Below are positions 609-8,809 of a stretch of 64,000 bases of DNA, one piece after another. The stretch spans positions 434,001 to 498,000 of the forward strand of contig JAHBVL010000001.1 in the NCBI GenBank assembly GCA_019637585.1, written 5' to 3'. A program made the translations under genes and the position numbers. Origin of the DNA: Thermomicrobiales bacterium (GTDB lineage Bacteria; Chloroflexota; Chloroflexia; Thermomicrobiales; UBA6265). The notes beneath the pieces were generated by a model. It searched no databases. It was not told where the DNA came from and saw only the letters and a list, made by a program, of their open reading frames with translations. Position 1 is the stretch's first letter, and each line of letters opens with the position of its first letter.

Positions 609-1564
609 ACGTCGCCATGGCGACCACACCCGAACCTGATCAACCGCAGCCAGCGCGGCGCGCCGTCGTCTGCTTCGTCGACGACCGGCCAGCGCTCATT
701 CAGCAGACGCATGCGCTCTATCTTTCCCTCATCGATTCGGACGCCCAGGATACCGATCTCGTGGCGATGGGTCCGGAAGCGGCGCTGGACCGCTTGCCGG
801 CCGGTGTGGTCAAGGTGCCGCAGCAACCGGCTGCCGATCATCCGCTGTGGAAGAGCTATCGATACATCAATTCCATTGCTTGCATGAACGGCGAGGGCGC
901 CGGTCTGCTCAACGCGTACACGCACGTACTCCGGACGGACGTGGACACCTTCATCATGCCGGGTTGGAACGATTTCCACCCGGAGACGTTCGTCTGGGGC
1001 GAAGGAGCCTATTCCAACAGCAACGACATCAGATCCCGGCTCCTGGCCATCAGCAAGGCTTTCGGGTTGACTTATCGGGGATATGTCAATGTCGGCTCAA
1101 CATGGTACGGACCGACAGCCGAAGTCCGCCGCGTTGCCGCTGTCTCCGAAATGATCGCCCGGCACATTTTCACGGAGCACTTTCCGGATGGCGAAGGCGC
1201 CTGGCCTGATTGGTATCAGGGCGTGACGACGATGTACTCGGGCGATATCGCCGTGAACCACTGCATCGCCGAGGGATCGCGAAGTCCGGTGCTCGATTCC
1301 TGGAGCACATCGCAGGCGTCGGTCGATCAGGCTGTCCACGTCCATTGCTGGCATACCGATGCCATGTTTTCCAAGCATTGGTTCATGAGCGGCAGGTACG
1401 ATCAGATCGATCTGGAGAGTATCGACACGTCGATCGTCGCCAACTACTGTCTGGACACGTCATTCCGGTCTGTCGAGCGTCTTCGCCAGCGAGATGAGCA
1501 ACTCATGGTCGAGCGCGCGCCGTTTGGCATCACGCCCGCCGGTCTTCCTCATCGGAGCGGATGA
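605..1564 (+). CDS. Glycosyltransferase-like protein
   Basis: A 319-residue soluble protein starting in the ATGA overlap with the epimerase. It opens after a short disordered stretch with a beta strand (AVVCFVDDRP) and contains LRTDVDTFIMPGW, which resembles the DxD metal/nucleotide-sugar site of GT-A glycosyltransferases. A later segment (YINSIACMNG, YSGDIAVNHC, HVHCWHTDAMFSKHWF) is rich in His and Trp and could form the acceptor side. No signal peptide or membrane helix is visible. The coupling with a nucleotide-sugar epimerase supports a glycan role. The family assignment rests on one motif and context, so a precise activity is not claimed. Confidence 0.6.
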   Translation: MNVAMATTPEPDQPQPARRAVVCFVDDRPALIQQTHALYLSLIDSDAQDTDLVAMGPEAALDRLPAGVVKVPQQPAADHPLWKSYRYINSIACMNGEGAGLLNAYTHVLRTDVDTFIMPGWNDFHPETFVWGEGAYSNSNDIRSRLLAISKAFGLTYRGYVNVGSTWYGPTAEVRRVAAVSEMIARHIFTEHFPDGEGAWPDWYQGVTTMYSGDIAVNHCIAEGSRSPVLDSWSTSQASVDQAVHVHCWHTDAMFSKHWFMSGRYDQIDLESIDTSIVANYCLDTSFRSVERLRQRDEQLMVERAPFGITPAGLPHRSG

Positions 1565-1633
1565 GGAACTGCCCACCCGAGTATGAAGCGGTTGTGCGGG
1601 GAGAGTGGAGGCCTCTCCTTCGCGTCCGGCGAC

Positions 1634-1661
1634 TTGACATCATCCTCCGATTTGCTATCCT
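1634..1661 (+). promoter_or_regulatory. Sigma-70-type promoter for the Cys-rich gene
   Basis: A perfect -35 box TTGACA at 1634-1639, a 16-base spacer and a -10 box TATCCT at 1656-1661, in a 289-base gap without a gene. It faces the Cys-rich exported protein and implies a leader of about 185 bases. I saw no clear hairpin in that leader. Confidence 0.6.
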
Positions 1662-1853
1662 GTCTACATAATCCAATTCCGCAGAATGTCCATCCTTCGA
1701 ACGGGGGCATGTGTTGGACACGCGGCGCAGATCCTTCCTCTCAAACACACCATCGTTCATGCGCGTTGCGGTTGTGCGCCGTATCGCGCTCCCTCTCGTC
1801 TTCCTCCAGCGTTTCGACAGCGGATCGTTCCGCCAGCGTGAGGTGGTGCATCA

Positions 1854-3872
1854 ATGGATGGAAAGTCGTTTGATGATCTGACGAAGCTTGTTGGCCGGGG
1901 AGCATCTCGCCGCACAATTCTTCGAGGGTTGCTGGGGTTGGGTGGCGCCGCAGCGGTGGGCGCGAGTACGAGTACCCCCGATGCAGCCGCTCGCGACGCC
2001 CGCACCCGACCAACCATCCCGCCACCACCTCCCCCGCCAACCACGACCTCCACCACCACCACCACCGGACTCCCATGCCCGGGCGATCTCTGCCCGAACA
2101 GCACGCTTTGCTGTCCCAGCGGCACCTGCGCCCGATCGGGCAACCAGGCGATCTGCTGCGACGGTACGGGAGGAAGCGGCACCGCTGTCTGCGGTCTGGA
2201 GTGTTGCCTCAATCCGCTGCAATGCTGCGACGGCGAGTGTTGTGGCGACCTGGCCGTCTGTCTCAACCGGGTTTTCGAGGGGCTTCCTGAAGAACTCTGT
2301 TGCCCGGCCGAACTGACCTGCGATGGCGGTTGCTGCGACGGCGAGTGCTACTTCCCGATGGGCGACCTGATCATCAATGGGTTCCCGATTCGTCCCGAAA
2401 TCTTCACCGCCCGTGAGTGTTGTCCGCCAAGCGGCAGTGTTTGTCAGGGTGCGAACAACGCGGCCTGTTGCGACGACGCCACCCAGGAGTGCTGCGTCGA
2501 CGATCTCGGCGAAGCGCGCTGCGTGCCGATCGGTGGTTGTTGCGAGGACGCGCACTGTCTGCCACTGCCGCCTGACTCGAGTCCCTGCGCTTTTGCCGTC
2601 TGTGGAGAAGCAAACCTGTGTGAGTACCCCAGCTGTCCGGATGGAGAGGAATGCTGTGTCAACGCGCCGGAACCGGTCTGCCTCGATCTGACGCAGGAGG
2701 GCGTTTGCTGCACCACCCCGCATTGTGAGAATGGGTGCGAGGTCTGTGAAGCCACTGTCTGCGTTCCGGCCTGCGCCGGCGAGTCGTGTTGCATGGCGGC
2801 GACCGATCCCGCCGATTGGACCTGCCTGACCGGAGACCAGTGCTGTTTCGACGACGACTGCGAGGGGAGTGACGAGATCTGCTGCGACAACGCGTGCCTC
2901 TCCGGGCCGTGTTGCGTCGACGCCGATTGCGATGGGCTGGAGACCTGCTGCGTGCTTGGCGCGTTGTCGTTCTGTCTCGATCTGACGGTGGAAGGGTCAT
3001 GCTGCAACGCCGGCGACTGCCCGCCTCCAACCGGGGAATGCATGGTGGCGGCCTGCACAGGCTTCATCTGCGAAGAACGAGGCGATCCGAACTGCTGTGT
3101 CCCGGAATGTGGCCCCGGCGAACAATGCTGTCCAGGTGGCCGGCAGAACTATTGCACCAATCTCTCGACATGCCTCGTGGCCTGCCAGGACCCCTCGGAC
3201 TGTACGCCGGGCGCGTTCGACTGCTTCATGACCTGCGATGGTCCCGGCGTCTGCTTCGGCAACCCTTGCTTCAACGACACCGTCTGCTGCGTGGGAGCGG
3301 GGGGACCGTATTGCTTTGAAGGGGTCGAGTGTCCATCTGGCGAAGAGCCGACCACGACCACGACCACCACCACCACGACAACCAGCACGACGACAACGAC
3401 GTCGACGACGCCGGCTCCGGCCTGCAATCCGTCGACCTGCACCGCGCAGAACCGGTGCGACGGAAACACCTGGTTGACCCATCAGTGCGTCGGCGATATC
3501 TGCCAGCAAACACAAACCGTCTGTGAAGACAGCGACATCTGTACGGAGAACTTCTGCACCGCCGGCGTCGGCTGTCAGTCCCGGTTGAGGACCGACACCT
3601 GCTATCCGACTTTTCCGGCTGGGGGGCCTGTGTGTTGTCCAAGGGGGTGGGACTGTCCGTTCGAGACGCTACAGTGCAACTGCTCAAATGGAAACGTCTG
3701 CAGCGACGGCAGCTGCGGGACGCTATGCTGCACCGCGGCGGACTGCCAAAGCCAGGAAATGGGTGTGATACCGTGCGTTGAGTGTGTGGACAACGCGTGC
3801 GTTGCGGTCAACGACGGCGGAGTGTGCCAGGGGACCGGAACGTGCAGCAACAGACAGTGCACATTCAACTGA
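1854..3872 (+). CDS. Tat-exported cysteine-rich protein with Thr-rich linkers
   Basis: A 672-residue exported protein of unknown function. Residues 1-45 form a Tat signal: a charged start (FDDLTKLVGRG), the twin arginines in SRRTILRGLLGLGG, and an Ala-rich end. Then come a Pro/Thr linker, a body of CC-containing repeats (CCDGECC, QECC, EEICC), a second Thr run near residue 490, and a C-terminal Cys-rich part. By hand I count about 110 cysteines, roughly one residue in six. The segment around ECCLNPLQCCDGECCG through CDGGCCDGECY matches the paralog encoded at 52424-54106. Export by Tat implies folding, and probably disulfide or metal loading, before export. A surface or matrix protein is likely; no enzyme domain is visible. 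A strong promoter lies upstream and the ATP-grasp gene follows directly. Confidence 0.8.
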   Translation: MDGKSFDDLTKLVGRGASRRTILRGLLGLGGAAAVGASTSTPDAAARDARTRPTIPPPPPPPTTTSTTTTTGLPCPGDLCPNSTLCCPSGTCARSGNQAICCDGTGGSGTAVCGLECCLNPLQCCDGECCGDLAVCLNRVFEGLPEELCCPAELTCDGGCCDGECYFPMGDLIINGFPIRPEIFTARECCPPSGSVCQGANNAACCDDATQECCVDDLGEARCVPIGGCCEDAHCLPLPPDSSPCAFAVCGEANLCEYPSCPDGEECCVNAPEPVCLDLTQEGVCCTTPHCENGCEVCEATVCVPACAGESCCMAATDPADWTCLTGDQCCFDDDCEGSDEICCDNACLSGPCCVDADCDGLETCCVLGALSFCLDLTVEGSCCNAGDCPPPTGECMVAACTGFICEERGDPNCCVPECGPGEQCCPGGRQNYCTNLSTCLVACQDPSDCTPGAFDCFMTCDGPGVCFGNPCFNDTVCCVGAGGPYCFEGVECPSGEEPTTTTTTTTTTTSTTTTTSTTPAPACNPSTCTAQNRCDGNTWLTHQCVGDICQQTQTVCEDSDICTENFCTAGVGCQSRLRTDTCYPTFPAGGPVCCPRGWDCPFETLQCNCSNGNVCSDGSCGTLCCTAADCQSQEMGVIPCVECVDNACVAVNDGGVCQGTGTCSNRQCTFN

Positions 3873-3909
3873 GTGGAGTGCACTAGGAGCCCGTCGAGAA
3901 CGTGAACCG

Positions 3910-5346
3910 GTGACGAATCGGACCCCGAGGAGTGCAATTCGGGCTATCCGGGATGCGGCGTTGCAACGCGGCGTCCCTGTTTTGGCTGTCGAGGCGGAGG
4001 AGGACCGAATCGTCCTCGGAACCGGCGCCTGGCAGCGCACCATGTGGTTGACAACGACCACACTCACGAGCCACCACGGCGCCCGAATCGCCGCGGACAA
4101 GGCGATGACCAAGCAGGTGCTGGCCCGCATCGGTATTCCTGTGCCTATCGGTTATCCGGTGCAGTCTCTGGAGGATGCGATCACGATTGCCGGGATTCTG
4201 GGGTATCCGGTCGTGCTCAAACCTCGCAAGGGAAACAAGGGCATTCTCGTCTTCATCGAGCTGGCGGATGAACGAGAGCTTCGAAGCGCATGGGAGATGA
4301 TCGCCGGCGCGCAGCCCCGCGGCGGAGTGTTGATCGAAGAATTCCTGCCGGGTGAAGAGTACCGGGTGCTCGTGATCGATGGCAGGGTGGTTGCGGTCAA
4401 TCACCGGATACCCCCGTTTGTCATAGGCGACGGTGTCTCGACGATCCAGCAACTTGTCGACCGGGAAAATGCCCGGCCGGAGCGCGCCCCTCCCCGGACT
4501 GGAGGGGCGCTCATTCACATCAAGGTCGATGAACAGACGGTCGAGCTCCTGGCCCGATCGAGCCGGACGTTGGCAAGCGTGCTGCCGGAAGGTGAACGCC
4601 AGCTCATCCGTCGCACCTCCAACGCCAGTGGCGGCGGTTCGACGGAAGAAGTGACCGATCTGATGCATCCGGACAATGTTCTGATCTGCGAGCTGACGGC
4701 GAAAACCGTCGGACTCGATATCGCGGGCATCGATCTGGTGGTGCGGGACGTTTCGGAATCCGTTCTGGAGACGGGTGGAGGCATTCTCGAAATCAACTCG
4801 GGCCCCGGTCTGATCGACCATCTGAAACCGGGATCGGGGACCCCCCGCGATGTGGGTGGAGCCATTCTGGACATGCTCTATCCACGCGGCGCGCACGTTC
4901 GCGCGCCGATCGTCGTGGTGACGGGAGATCAGCGCTGTGTTGCGCTCTCCCGGGCTATCGCGACATGCCTGTCCGATGAGGGGCGCCGAATCGGCATGCT
5001 CGTCGAGGGGTGCTTCATGGTTGGGTCGCTCTCGATCGACGTTTCCATGATGGAGCCGTCGGGGCAGGTCCATGCCCTGCTGGCGAACCCATTGGTGGAA
5101 GCCGCGATCATCTGCCTACCGCCGGACCTCCTGGAGCCGCTCCCCTATATCGATGTTGCGGTGGTATCGAACCCAGACTCGGGAAGCGCTGCAGCCCCGC
5201 CTGCTGTGCCCGAACCAGACGTCGCATGGGTCGCCATCGGAACCCCGCTGATCCCGAGCGGCACGGCAAGGCGGGTAATCACCCTGTCACCCACAGCGAC
5301 TCCGGAAGAAGTCGCCAGGGAAGTCGCCGCGCTCCTTGGCGCCTAG
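3910..5346 (+). CDS. Cyanophycin-synthetase-like ATP-grasp ligase with degenerate Mur-ligase tail
   Basis: About 478 residues. It matches the middle of cyanophycin synthetase (CphA): RTMWLTTTTLTSHHGARIAADK, then the ATP-grasp core with YPVVLKPRKGNKG, IEEFLPGEEYRVLVIDGRVV, LIRRTSNASGGG, VGLDIAGIDLVV and the magnesium-site strand GGGILEINSGPG, followed by GTPRDVGGAILDMLYP. CphA is about 870 residues and continues into a Mur-ligase domain that starts VTGTNGKTTT. Here the equivalent point reads VVVTGDQRCVAL (near residue 338), so the P-loop Gly-Lys-Thr is gone, and only about 140 residues follow. The CphA N-terminal domain is also missing. It could form amide or isopeptide bonds with an amino acid but not the full cyanophycin cycle. 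The start is uncertain: GTG 3910 is chosen because homology begins just after it; the frame stays open upstream into the Cys-rich gene. Confidence 0.75.
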   Translation: MTNRTPRSAIRAIRDAALQRGVPVLAVEAEEDRIVLGTGAWQRTMWLTTTTLTSHHGARIAADKAMTKQVLARIGIPVPIGYPVQSLEDAITIAGILGYPVVLKPRKGNKGILVFIELADERELRSAWEMIAGAQPRGGVLIEEFLPGEEYRVLVIDGRVVAVNHRIPPFVIGDGVSTIQQLVDRENARPERAPPRTGGALIHIKVDEQTVELLARSSRTLASVLPEGERQLIRRTSNASGGGSTEEVTDLMHPDNVLICELTAKTVGLDIAGIDLVVRDVSESVLETGGGILEINSGPGLIDHLKPGSGTPRDVGGAILDMLYPRGAHVRAPIVVVTGDQRCVALSRAIATCLSDEGRRIGMLVEGCFMVGSLSIDVSMMEPSGQVHALLANPLVEAAIICLPPDLLEPLPYIDVAVVSNPDSGSAAAPPAVPEPDVAWVAIGTPLIPSGTARRVITLSPTATPEEVAREVAALLGA

Positions 5347-5371
5347 CGACACGCGAACTCCCGGCCAATTT

Positions 5372-5406
5372 ACTATGCACTATGAACTATGCACTACGAA
5401 CTACTG
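5372..5406 (+). repeat. Heptad tandem repeat
   Basis: Five imperfect 7-bp units (ACTATGC, ACTATGA, ACTATGC, ACTACGA, ACTACTG) between the convergent ligase and cation-efflux genes. It is one of many 7-8 bp tandem tracts confined to gaps in this window. Confidence 0.85.
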
Positions 5407-5417
5407 TGCACAACCCC

Positions 5418-6437
5418 TCAAGCGTGCACCTGCTCGGTTCGCGGATTCGCCCCTCTGCGGATCGTCAGACAGTCGTCCACTCCGGCGACTGTGTCGATCG
5501 AGCAACCGTTCCATTGCCCACGGGTTCGCGACGCGGTTTCCGGTTGCAGTGTCAGATGGCCGATGTCGAACCGGTCCCCCAGCATCCTATGGAGGTCGAC
5601 GAGGAGATCGTCCCATGGACGGGAGTTGTCGACTTCGACATGCGCGCTCAGGGCGATGAGTCCGGAGGTGACGGTCCAGATGTGCAAATCGTGCACTCCT
5701 TGCACCCCCTCGGTGGCCACAAACGCCTCGCGCACTTCAGCGACGTCGACCTGGGCAGGGGTCGCTTCCATCAGGACGTCGACCGATTCCTTCAGGAGCC
5801 GCCAGGCGCCGTAGAGGATGAGAAGACCGATACCGGCGGAGAGGAGAGGGTCGGCGTACCACCAGCCGGTGGCCATCATCACGAGTGCCGCCGCAATCGC
5901 GCCGACCGAGCCGAGCATGTCGCCGATCACATGAAGAAAAGCGCCGCGGGTGTTCAGATCGTGCGTATGCCCACCCCCGCGAGAGAGCACGAACGCCGAA
6001 ACCGCGTTGGCGATCAAGCCGGCAATGGCTACGCCGAGCATCAGTCCGCTCTCGATCTCGGGCGGATCGGTCATCCGCCGCCAGGCTTCCCAGAAGATGT
6101 ACAGACTGATGACGATCAGCATGGCGGCGTTCACGGCCGCCGCAAGAACCTCCGCCCGGGCAAAACCAAACGACCGGCGATTGGTTGCTGGCCGGGCCGC
6201 CAGCCATCCGGCACCCAGGGCTAAAGCGAGCGCAATGGCATCGGTCAGCATGTGGCCGGCATCGGCCAGGAGGGCCAGGGAATCGGTCAGCAGCGCGCCC
6301 ACCACCTCGATGACCATAAAGGTCACCGTGATTCCCAGCGCGATCGCCAGATTGCGGCGTTTCACGTCGCCGTGGTCATGATGATGGTGGTGGTGGGTGT
6401 CGGCATCTGCGGCTGCATGCCGGTGCAAGAGGTTCAT
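5418..6437 (-). CDS. Cation diffusion facilitator (CDF) family metal efflux transporter
   Basis: A 339-residue inner-membrane metal/proton antiporter of the CzcD/ZitB type. The N terminus carries a His-rich metal-binding tail (HHHHHHDHGD). Six membrane segments follow, the second with the LLADAGHMLTDAIAL motif (the H-x3-D zinc site) and the fifth with HVIGDMLGSVGAI, which gives the second H-x3-D pair. The cytosolic C-terminal domain has VHDLHIWTVTSG and LSAHVEV, usual in dimerising CDF domains. Zn, Co or Cd are likely substrates. It is a single-gene unit with no clear Shine-Dalgarno sequence; a 7-8 bp tandem repeat tract lies immediately before the start codon. Confidence 0.93.
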   Translation of the reverse strand: MNLLHRHAAADADTHHHHHHDHGDVKRRNLAIALGITVTFMVIEVVGALLTDSLALLADAGHMLTDAIALALALGAGWLAARPATNRRSFGFARAEVLAAAVNAAMLIVISLYIFWEAWRRMTDPPEIESGLMLGVAIAGLIANAVSAFVLSRGGGHTHDLNTRGAFLHVIGDMLGSVGAIAAALVMMATGWWYADPLLSAGIGLLILYGAWRLLKESVDVLMEATPAQVDVAEVREAFVATEGVQGVHDLHIWTVTSGLIALSAHVEVDNSRPWDDLLVDLHRMLGDRFDIGHLTLQPETASRTRGQWNGCSIDTVAGVDDCLTIRRGANPRTEQVHA

Positions 6438-6453
6438 TTGGGGGAATGGTAGT

Positions 6454-6542
6454 TGGGAAATGGGAAATGGACGGCGAAAAGGCGAAAAGGCGAAAAGGCG
6501 AAGAGGCGAAGAGACGGTAAGACGGGAAGACGGGAAGACGGG
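6454..6542 (+). repeat. Octad (GGCGAAAA/GACGGGAA) and heptad (GGGAAAT) tandem repeats
   Basis: Two GGGAAAT-type units are followed by eight or nine octads that drift from GGCGAAAA to GGCGAAGA to GACGGGAA. The tract lies directly upstream of the cation efflux start codon and fills the first part of a 464-base gap (6438-6901) that has no gene; the rest of that gap holds two dispersed palindromic repeats. Confidence 0.85.
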
Positions 6543-6557
6543 CTAGTCGGCAAGCAC

Positions 6558-6600
6558 GCTCCCCTCTCCCGCGGTCGGGAGAGGGGTCGGGGGTGAGGGA
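6558..6600. repeat. Dispersed palindromic repeat, family A (CTCCCGCGGTCGGGAGAG)
   Basis: One copy of a G+C-rich hairpin repeat in which a CCCCTCTCCCG arm pairs with a CGGGAGAGGGG arm around a short GCGGT-type centre, with a GGGGGTGAGGGA flank. Other copies lie at 8722-8932, 15782-15823 and 43907-43950. Confidence 0.85.
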
Positions 6601-6622
6601 TTTTCCGCCCCCCAATCACACC

Positions 6623-6729
6623 GTCATCCCGAGCCGGGTCGAGGGACCTCTCGTTGGGGTAGGCCGGGTGGCTGATTTGCAGCGTGGCCGGACCCGAACG
6701 GGAGATTCCTCCACTTCGGTCGGAATGAC
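6623..6729. repeat. Dispersed inverted-terminal repeat, family B (GTCATTCCGAGC-type ends)
   Basis: A roughly 107-bp element bounded by GTCATCCCGAGC at the left and GGTCGGAATGAC at the right, which are inverted copies of each other. Inside are a CCTCTCGTT arm and a GGAGATTCCTCCACTTC stretch. Further copies: 15656-15761, 20753-20859 and 20884-20990. It codes for nothing and resembles a REP or MITE-like element. Confidence 0.8.
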
Positions 6730-6901
6730 GAAAGGGCAGGGGTTGGAATGACGGGAAGGGGCTGCATGACGAAGGGGGTCGGAGAAGAGCTGGGGATGAG
6801 GGATTTTCCGCTTGGTCTCCTTTCCACCGCCGTTACGCTACGATAGACCTCTGCGCACAACACTCCTGACGGCAGGCTGCCGGCTCGAAAAGGAGACCCA
6901 C

Positions 6902-8809
6902 GTGGACGATTCGTTCGATTTCGACGCCATCGTGATCGGTTCCGGGTTCGGTGGGTCGGTGATGACCTACCGCCTGGCCAAAGCGGGATTGCGCGTCCGT
7001 CTTTTCGAACGAGGCAAGGCGTATCCTCCGGGCACATTTCCCCGCAGTCCCTGGCGGATGAAAACCAACTTCTGGGATCCGAGCAACCGGCTGCACGGCA
7101 TGTTCAACGTCTGGTCGTTCGACAAGATCGGCGGCGTTGTCTCCAGTGGTCTGGGGGGAGGTTCGCTGATCTACGCCAATGTACTGCTGCGCAAACCGGC
7201 GGACACCTTCGAATCCGAAGGCTGGGCGATCAGCAGAGAGGATCTCGAACCCCACTACGATCAGGCCGAGCGGATGTTGACCGGACAGCATTACCCATTC
7301 GAAGTGGGAAAGAGTGACGAGGAATGGGGGCGCGACACGAACCCGTTCAATCGCACCTCGAAAACGCGGGCCATGGAAGTCGCAGCCGGACAGATCGGCG
7401 CAGAACTGGGGATGCCTACGGAGTTTTCACTTCCCAAGCTGGCCGTGACATTTGCCAATCCCGACGAACCCCCACGGGTCGGCGTTCCGATCCGCATCGC
7501 CAATGCCGGGGAATTCGACGAATCTGGTGCAAACGGAGCGCCCCCCAGTCTGCACGAAGGCGCCCGAACCCGGCTCACCTGCCAGCTTTGCGGGGAATGC
7601 GATCTGGGCTGCAACTATGGCAGCAAGAACACTCTCGACCTCACCTATCTGTCAGCCGCCATGCTGTTCGACAAGAAGCCGTGCATCAGCCCAAATCATG
7701 AAGTGCGGCGCATGGAGCCGATCGATGGGGGCGGCTACCGCGTTTTCTATGTCGATCATTCGGCCTATGTCAACGGCGCTGCCGATGCCCCGGAATCGCA
7801 GAGTCTCCGCGAGCAAGCGTGCACGGCGAAATATCTGATTCTCTCGGCGGGCAGCTTCGGCTCGACTTACCTGCTGCTCAAGAGCGGGGAGCACTTCAGC
7901 AAGATCGATTCCCGGGCGCTCGGTTCCCGATTCTGCGGCAATGGCGATCTGCTGACGGTTGTGCGGGGAGCGAAGCTGGGCCGCGGCGACGAACGACCGC
8001 GCCGCCTGGACAACAGCTACGGTCCCGTGATCACCAGCGCGATTCGGGTCGAAGCGGGAAAGGACCGGCAGGGCCGCCGTCTCTATCACTATGTCGAAGA
8101 CTCCGGATACCCCGATTTCGCTCACTGGATGCTGGAAATCCTCAACCCGCTCTATCTGGCCAAGCGGTTCACCCAGTTCGCCGGGCCGTGGGTCCGGCTG
8201 CGATTTCGGCTGTCGAGAGATTCGGATATCAGCGAGGAGATTTCGCGAATCATCGGCGATGGAACCACGTCCAGCACGATGATGCCGCTCCTGGGCATGG
8301 GTACCGATACGCCGGACGGCAAGATGAAACTCGATGGTGATCGGCTGGCGCTCGACTGGAGCTGGAAATCGTCGCGAGACCATTTCAAGGCGATCGAGCG
8401 CACCGGTGCTGCTATCGCCAATGTGCTCAACGCCAGATTCACGAAGAATCCGCTGGGCAGACTGAGCAGGGTCGTCACGGTCCACCCGCTTGGCGGGTGT
8501 CCTATGGATCACTACGAAACAGTTGGGGGGCAGAAGAGGCTGGTCACGGGAGTTGTCGACACCAACGGCGAAGTGCATGGCTACAAAAACTTCTATATCG
8601 CGGATGGTTCCGTGCTGCCGGGACCAGTCGGCCCGAACCCCTCGCTGACTATTGCCGCGTGCGCTAACCGGTTCGCCGACCACCTGCTCGCGGGGCATTC
8701 CCGCGCCCCCGGTCCGGGAGAATCCCTCACCCCCGGCCACTCTCCCGACCGCGGGACGTCCCTCACCCCCGACCCCTCTCCCGACCGCGGGAGAGGGGAG
8801 AAGGGGTAG
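6902..8809 (+). CDS. GMC-family FAD oxidoreductase (cholesterol-oxidase-like)
   Basis: A 635-residue flavoenzyme. GTG at 6902 is chosen because AAGGAG lies just upstream and the FAD motif follows at once (FDAIVIGSGFGGSVMTYRLA). It has GGVVSSGLGGGSLIYANV, a Cys-containing insert (CQLCGECDLGCNYGSKNT), and the C-terminal GMC signature VHPLGGCPMD with ADGSVLPGPVGPNPSLTIAA. This matches the cholesterol-oxidase-like branch that oxidises alcohol groups of sterol-like or other bulky substrates. It has no signal peptide. The last 30 or so residues (GESLTPGHSPDRG and a second SPDRGRGE) are translated from the dispersed family A repeat, so the natural end was probably near LLAGHSRA and the stop codon is now supplied by repeat DNA. 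Confidence 0.9.
   Translation: MDDSFDFDAIVIGSGFGGSVMTYRLAKAGLRVRLFERGKAYPPGTFPRSPWRMKTNFWDPSNRLHGMFNVWSFDKIGGVVSSGLGGGSLIYANVLLRKPADTFESEGWAISREDLEPHYDQAERMLTGQHYPFEVGKSDEEWGRDTNPFNRTSKTRAMEVAAGQIGAELGMPTEFSLPKLAVTFANPDEPPRVGVPIRIANAGEFDESGANGAPPSLHEGARTRLTCQLCGECDLGCNYGSKNTLDLTYLSAAMLFDKKPCISPNHEVRRMEPIDGGGYRVFYVDHSAYVNGAADAPESQSLREQACTAKYLILSAGSFGSTYLLLKSGEHFSKIDSRALGSRFCGNGDLLTVVRGAKLGRGDERPRRLDNSYGPVITSAIRVEAGKDRQGRRLYHYVEDSGYPDFAHWMLEILNPLYLAKRFTQFAGPWVRLRFRLSRDSDISEEISRIIGDGTTSSTMMPLLGMGTDTPDGKMKLDGDRLALDWSWKSSRDHFKAIERTGAAIANVLNARFTKNPLGRLSRVVTVHPLGGCPMDHYETVGGQKRLVTGVVDTNGEVHGYKNFYIADGSVLPGPVGPNPSLTIAACANRFADHLLAGHSRAPGPGESLTPGHSPDRGTSLTPDPSPDRGRGEKG

Follow-up and report, generated by a model that had tools for sequence, protein, structure and literature searches.

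The locus analyzed here raises the question of what a cyanophycin synthetase (CphA) can still do once its second active site has been lost, and which partner such an enzyme might act on. The window, that is the whole stretch of 64,000 nucleotides under analysis, corresponds to C1:434001-498000 of a 3.94-Mb genome in 33 contigs, whose closest named relatives belong to the Thermomicrobiales, and encodes a shortened CphA-like protein, in the following termed window ligase, close to its 5' end.

3910..5346, + strand: CphA-derived single-site ATP-grasp ligase of 478 aa with GTG start (ORF, NCBIfam, fold match)
3885..3889, + strand: AGGAG, a possible ribosome-binding site 20 nt 5' of GTG 3910, a spacing longer than usual (sequence reading)

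The frame is open from the GTG at 3910 to the stop codon at 5344-5346, and its GC content by codon position resembles that of the neighboring genes. NCBIfam and PDB searches align residues 11-401 with CphA; the match opens where the G domain begins and extends into the M domain. The scores to the NCBIfam cyanophycin synthetase models (385.5 and 352.5 bits) remain far below the cut-offs of 877 and 850, and the G domain shares 35-43% identity with the homologous G domain of CphA1. The window ligase gene is thus real and derived from CphA. Six-frame tblastn with full CphA1 and its paralogs against positions 1501-8000 of the window returned only matches in the known frame, without any N-domain or further Mur sequence. 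Therefore, a simple frameshift does not account for the short form, and its origin from a frameshift or sequencing error was rejected. The same search agrees with the absence of the N-terminal domain reported in the initial annotation, as the match begins at the G domain.

The second half of the protein consists of what is left of the Mur (M) domain.

4894..5343, + strand: M domain remnant, residues 329-478, without catalytic residues (alignment, structure model)
4921..4947, + strand: lost Mur P-loop site, residues 338-346, with TGDQRCVAL in place of CphA1 TGTNGKTTT (alignment)

All Mur P-loop residues are gone, as had been read from the sequence earlier, and the Mur lid is absent as well. Owing to the loss of the Mur site, the two-site cyanophycin reaction is impossible, in line with the initial annotation. 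Its further statement that most of the Mur domain is missing is correct insofar as Pfam detects neither Mur_ligase_M nor Mur_ligase_C in the window ligase, both of which are present in the CphA1 of the same genome, but about 150 M-derived residues remain. The first ~75 of these are predicted as a fold, and clear Mur similarity stops after about 75-100 residues. From about residue 424 onwards, the end of the protein is poorly ordered in the AlphaFold model, which counts against an active ligase.

The first half, by contrast with the Mur half, retains the make-up of a single-site ligase that had been proposed for the protein, with the catalytic residues of the G domain kept and the second site lost.

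3943..4893, + strand: G (ATP-grasp) domain, residues 12-328, with all catalytic residues present (alignment to CphA1)
4225..4248, + strand: phosphate-binding loop within the G domain, reading RKGNKGIL instead of LDGNHGRG, with H267 changed to K110, R269 to I112, and G270 to L113 (alignment)

Residue roles were taken from TeCphA1 structures, with the SuCphA1 numbering transferred by alignment (PMC9427784). In CphA1, K220 and K261 serve ATP binding, R309 the acceptor carboxylate, R323, N394, and S396 the aspartate, and D431 and E450 the Mg ions (PMC9427784). These correspond to K64, K104, R152, R166, N238, S240, D275, and E294 of the window ligase, and N452 is kept as N296. Three positions with roles known from CphA1 (PMC9427784) are altered: E215, which binds the Arg side chain at the chain end, to R59; H267, which is placed for stabilization of the acylphosphate, to K110; and R458, which holds the α-carboxylate of the incoming Asp, to I302. 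Thus, three of the six residues of the recognition set (E215, H267, R323, N394, S396, R458) are kept and three are changed. The earlier description of the ATP-grasp half as well kept therefore applies to the catalytic residues, but not to these three substrate positions.

The distribution of the remaining changes also distinguishes the two halves. Compared with 38 CphA1 G domains, the window ligase retains 47 of 66 invariant sites (71%) versus 13 of 69 variable sites (19%; Fisher p 7e-10), whereas retention in the M part does not follow CphA1 conservation (p 0.13). An ATP-grasp enzyme under selection, with its Mur half released, shows this pattern. The reading frame has stayed intact along a branch of ~3.5 changes per site, the longest in the tree.

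The AlphaFold model has a mean pLDDT of 82.9 and a pTM of 0.81, with most of the G domain at pLDDT 85-98. The comparison with CphA and CphA2 structures that had been suggested earlier identifies CphA1 as the best solved fold match (VIA-align Z 35.9), with CphA2 at Z 27.9 and the ATP-grasp module of GshF at Z 28.8. RimK and LysX/ArgX match with Z 19-21 over ~240 residues, covering the ATP-grasp core alone.

Beyond the initial annotation, the window ligase turned out to be one of seven paralogs in a genome that also has a normal CphA1. The latter is complete, is encoded on C12 with a cyanophycinase-family gene upstream, and lies apart from the Mur-less set. Besides one paralog at C1:37 kb, this set of CphA-derived proteins without Mur P-loop comprises:

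L010:5892-14305 (C1:60.9-69.3 kb), one strand: array of four P-loop-less ligases (702, 698, 697, and 704 aa) with gaps of -40, +6, and +33 bp
L012:7268-10459 (C29): 1063-aa fusion protein lacking the Mur P-loop, with an additional N-terminal region of ~400 aa

The N-terminal region of the fusion protein has no sequence match among solved structures, and neither Mur_ligase_M nor Mur_ligase_C (Pfam) was found in any of the six other paralogs. An eighth member of 715 aa was found among 158 genomes of the class, in genome G024 from another genus of the same family. The Mur P-loop is missing in all eight proteins. In CphA1, the N domain carries the motif Cx19HxxEH in 83% of cases (PMC9262961); seven of the eight keep an N domain, diverged in the paralogs, and all seven are without the HxxEH peptidase motif. 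K220, K261, R309, D431, and N452 are conserved in all eight, as is E450 apart from one protein with Asp. Positions 215, 267, 394, 396, and 458 vary freely within the set, and the ligases of the array differ from each other at substrate residues. In a tree without CphA2 sequences, the eight proteins lie on one side of a branch opposite 31 CphA1s (support 100/99); branches within the set are long and their order is unsure. A profile of the set scores 387-415 bits to CphA1 versus 298 bits to CphA2.

The distribution of these proteins is narrow. The exact 478-aa form has no ortholog in the 31 other genomes of the family, which agrees with the absence from relatives considered earlier as far as this short form is concerned, but the P-loop-less type as such is present in G024. 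Its occurrence in two of the 158 class genomes counts against a one-site ligase with a Cys-rich partner. No P-loop-less relative beyond these two genomes was found in the class or in 400 genomes of the phylum, where relatives were judged by the length of their open frames and several matches at contig ends were left unjudged. A wider scan of genome contigs gave at least 80 loci, and all those listed encode CphA1 with P-loop. Viral contigs contained no match for the window ligase itself and weak ATP-grasp matches with A2 as query. IMG/VR viral contigs (L194-L198) encode ATP-grasp proteins of 565-584 aa that have no Mur P-loop and share 31-33% identity with the array ligases. Beside CphA1 lies the gene of a Mur-only CphA-like protein whose P-loop is intact (L011:9541-11124), and homologs of it occur at many CphA1 loci in Actinomycetota and Thermomicrobiales (45 ORFs).

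The candidate partner of the window ligase is encoded directly upstream.

1854..3872, + strand: exported Cys-rich protein of 672 aa (16.4% Cys) with predicted Tat signal, its gene ending 37 bp before that of the window ligase on the same strand
1634..1661, + strand: promoter-like site 5' of the Cys-rich gene, TTGACA-16-TATCCT with TG preceding the -10 (consensus match only)

Consensus matching found no promoter-like site between the two genes. The Cys-rich protein matches nothing in Pfam, NCBIfam, PHROG, or PADLOC, and PADLOC likewise gives no defense match for the window ligase. Upstream of the Cys-rich gene, positions 605-1564 encode a DUF7164 protein that, at E 1e-30, has no match in the other family genomes; 3' of the window ligase, a CDF-type cation transporter, named by sequence reading, is encoded on the opposite strand and has matches in 17 of 32 family genomes.

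About 25 long Cys-rich ORFs were found in the regions read from this genome. A Cys-rich gene adjoins a P-loop-less ligase at three of four loci here and at the G024 locus. Cys-rich gene and ligase follow each other on the same strand in the window (37 bp), at C1:37 kb (99 bp), and in G024 (44 bp, with a Tat signal in the Cys-rich protein); among related genomes, for which the initial annotation had proposed a search, G024 thus has the same gene order. That both gene types are neighbors at two further loci of this genome and in another genus makes the joint role suggested in the initial annotation likely. The Cys-rich gene in front of the G024 ligase consists of two overlapping ORFs (L076:8104-8113), perhaps because of a frameshift, be it genuine or introduced by assembly. 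Two loci count against a partnership: the four-gene array is convergent with its Cys-rich neighbor at a distance of 408 bp rather than downstream of it, and the fusion paralog on C29 has no Cys-rich neighbor within the stretch read. With random placement and ~3,750 genes assumed, the chance of three of four loci adjoining a Cys-rich gene is near 1e-5, a value that serves as a guide only because clustering of both families in islands would raise it. Such clustering could bring them together, as phage-like genes lie by part of the C1 cluster. In a neighbor survey of Cys-rich loci, P-loop-less ligases are among the two most recurrent families.

Other genes were noted at these loci. Phage portal and endolysin-like genes lie within the Cys-rich/ligase cluster of C1 (L009:11238-12566 and L010:14450-15487). 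NB-ARC/TPR proteins, two of which have TIR and one HTH, are encoded next to Cys-rich genes (L225:5256-8009, L226:4090-6888, L223:7521-10034, L223:13026-15272). One Tat Cys-rich protein contains a SpaA prealbumin-like domain (L219:8528-10981). Domains of this type are known from surface proteins and would suit an exported structural role.

On balance, the window ligase is somewhat more likely than not to be a functional amide ligase with one site that has given up cyanophycin synthesis and acts together with the Cys-rich protein. It would descend from a CphA1 that lost its Mur site, its Mur lid and, in this case, its N domain. CphA G domains and other ATP-grasp ligases convert a carboxylate into an acylphosphate, which is then coupled to an amine. 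Likewise, ATP would be held in the ATP-grasp site of the window ligase, a carboxylate held by R152/R166 would be phosphorylated, and the resulting acylphosphate would be joined to an amine. Cyanophycin is presumably not the product, because the Mur site is gone and E215, H267, and R458 are now Arg, Lys, and Ile. The window ligase may be part of a small group of Thermomicrobiales paralogs acting together with Cys-rich proteins that are exported via Tat. Its likeliest role would be the addition of an amino acid or short non-ribosomal peptide to the Cys-rich protein in the cytoplasm prior to export; alternatively, a peptide made alongside this protein could be the acceptor. As a guess, the differing recognition residues of the four-ligase array would fit a stepwise addition of different units.

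Other explanations share parts of this evidence. The ligase could be active and yield a small peptide or an amino acid conjugate as a free product, without any functional tie to the Cys-rich proteins, both being neighbors through lineage-specific islands. The phage portal and endolysin genes in the C1 cluster are in favor of this, as are the DUF7164 gene beside the window pair, which is likewise confined to this genome within the family, the recurrence of NB-ARC/TPR proteins beside Cys-rich genes, and the close fold match to GshF. Nevertheless, order, strand, and short gaps are alike at two loci of this genome and at the G024 locus, and no phage-like gene was recognized among the ORFs beside the window pair; this explanation is possible, if rather unlikely. 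A lower probability still is assigned to a functionless, decaying CphA duplicate. The losses of the N domain and of most of the M domain, the longest branch of the tree, and the lack of an ortholog in 31 other family genomes would be expected for such a remnant, but the frame is open despite very high divergence, the catalytic residues are kept, retention strongly follows CphA1 conservation in G and not in M, and the codon-position GC resembles that of neighboring genes.

It is equally improbable that the window ligase is a CphA2-like enzyme acting on β-Asp-Arg. As in CphA2, Mur P-loop and Mur lid are missing (PMC9427784), CphA2 structures are matched at the Z score given above, and CphA1 and cyanophycinase in the genome make the dipeptide likely to be available. 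However, the residue holding the Arg side chain has itself become Arg, H267 and R458 are altered, the set profile scores better against CphA1 than against CphA2, the N domain that CphA2 retains is absent, and seven diverged copies are hard to square with this activity. Finally, the window ligase might be one half of a split synthetase acting in trans with the Mur-only protein encoded beside CphA1. This protein, with its intact P-loop, is present in the genome, but its homologs often accompany complete CphA1 in genomes that lack the P-loop-less set and thus do not track with it, which leaves this option highly implausible.

The preferred reading of an active one-site ligase with a Cys-rich partner has consequences beyond this locus. 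Mur-less ligases beside Cys-rich exported genes suggest an undescribed peptide- or protein-modifying system. Tentatively, and with considerable doubt, this could be a new protein-tailoring system in which paralogs of diversified specificity, including the four-ligase array, attach non-ribosomal amino acids or short peptides to Cys-rich surface proteins ahead of their export by Tat. In the open-licence literature, no paper was found that describes a CphA without the Mur half from Chloroflexota or next to Tat proteins rich in Cys. The literature covered treats CphA as a synthetase of a storage polymer and describes CphA2 as the only reduced version of it. A second Mur-less set, multiplied in one genome, diversified at its substrate residues, and tied to exported Cys-rich proteins, would show that the CphA scaffold has been reused for other amide bonds. 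As the set is compact, varies naturally in its substrate loops, and has a named candidate partner, its substrate specificity is directly testable.

Among known systems, CphA1 shares with the window ligase the homologous G domain, the residues for ATP, Mg, and the acceptor carboxylate, and what remains of the M-domain fold. In contrast to CphA1, the window ligase has no N domain, Mur P-loop, or Mur lid, its residues for acceptor and amino acid recognition are altered, and it is not encoded beside a cyanophycinase. CphA2 has one active site and neither Mur P-loop nor Mur lid (PMC9427784; PMC10206079). With its single ATP-grasp site and truncated M domain it is the nearest analog in function, but it is cyanobacterial and has an N domain, whereas the P-loop-less set has several paralogs beside Cys-rich exported proteins, a profile nearer to CphA1, and a change at the residue that reads Arg in CphA1. 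The simplest reading of these sequence data, from a tree that contains no CphA2, is an independent reduction from CphA1 rather than membership in CphA2. The ATP-grasp module of the bifunctional glutathione synthetase GshF resembles the window ligase in its single-site reaction type and close fold; unlike GshF, the window ligase has no GshA domain, and sequence similarity is lower and the phosphate-binding loop different. RimK and LysX/ArgX are ATP-grasp enzymes that add amino acids to proteins. They share only the ATP-grasp core with the window ligase and have no M remnant, but provide the functional model for its proposed role.
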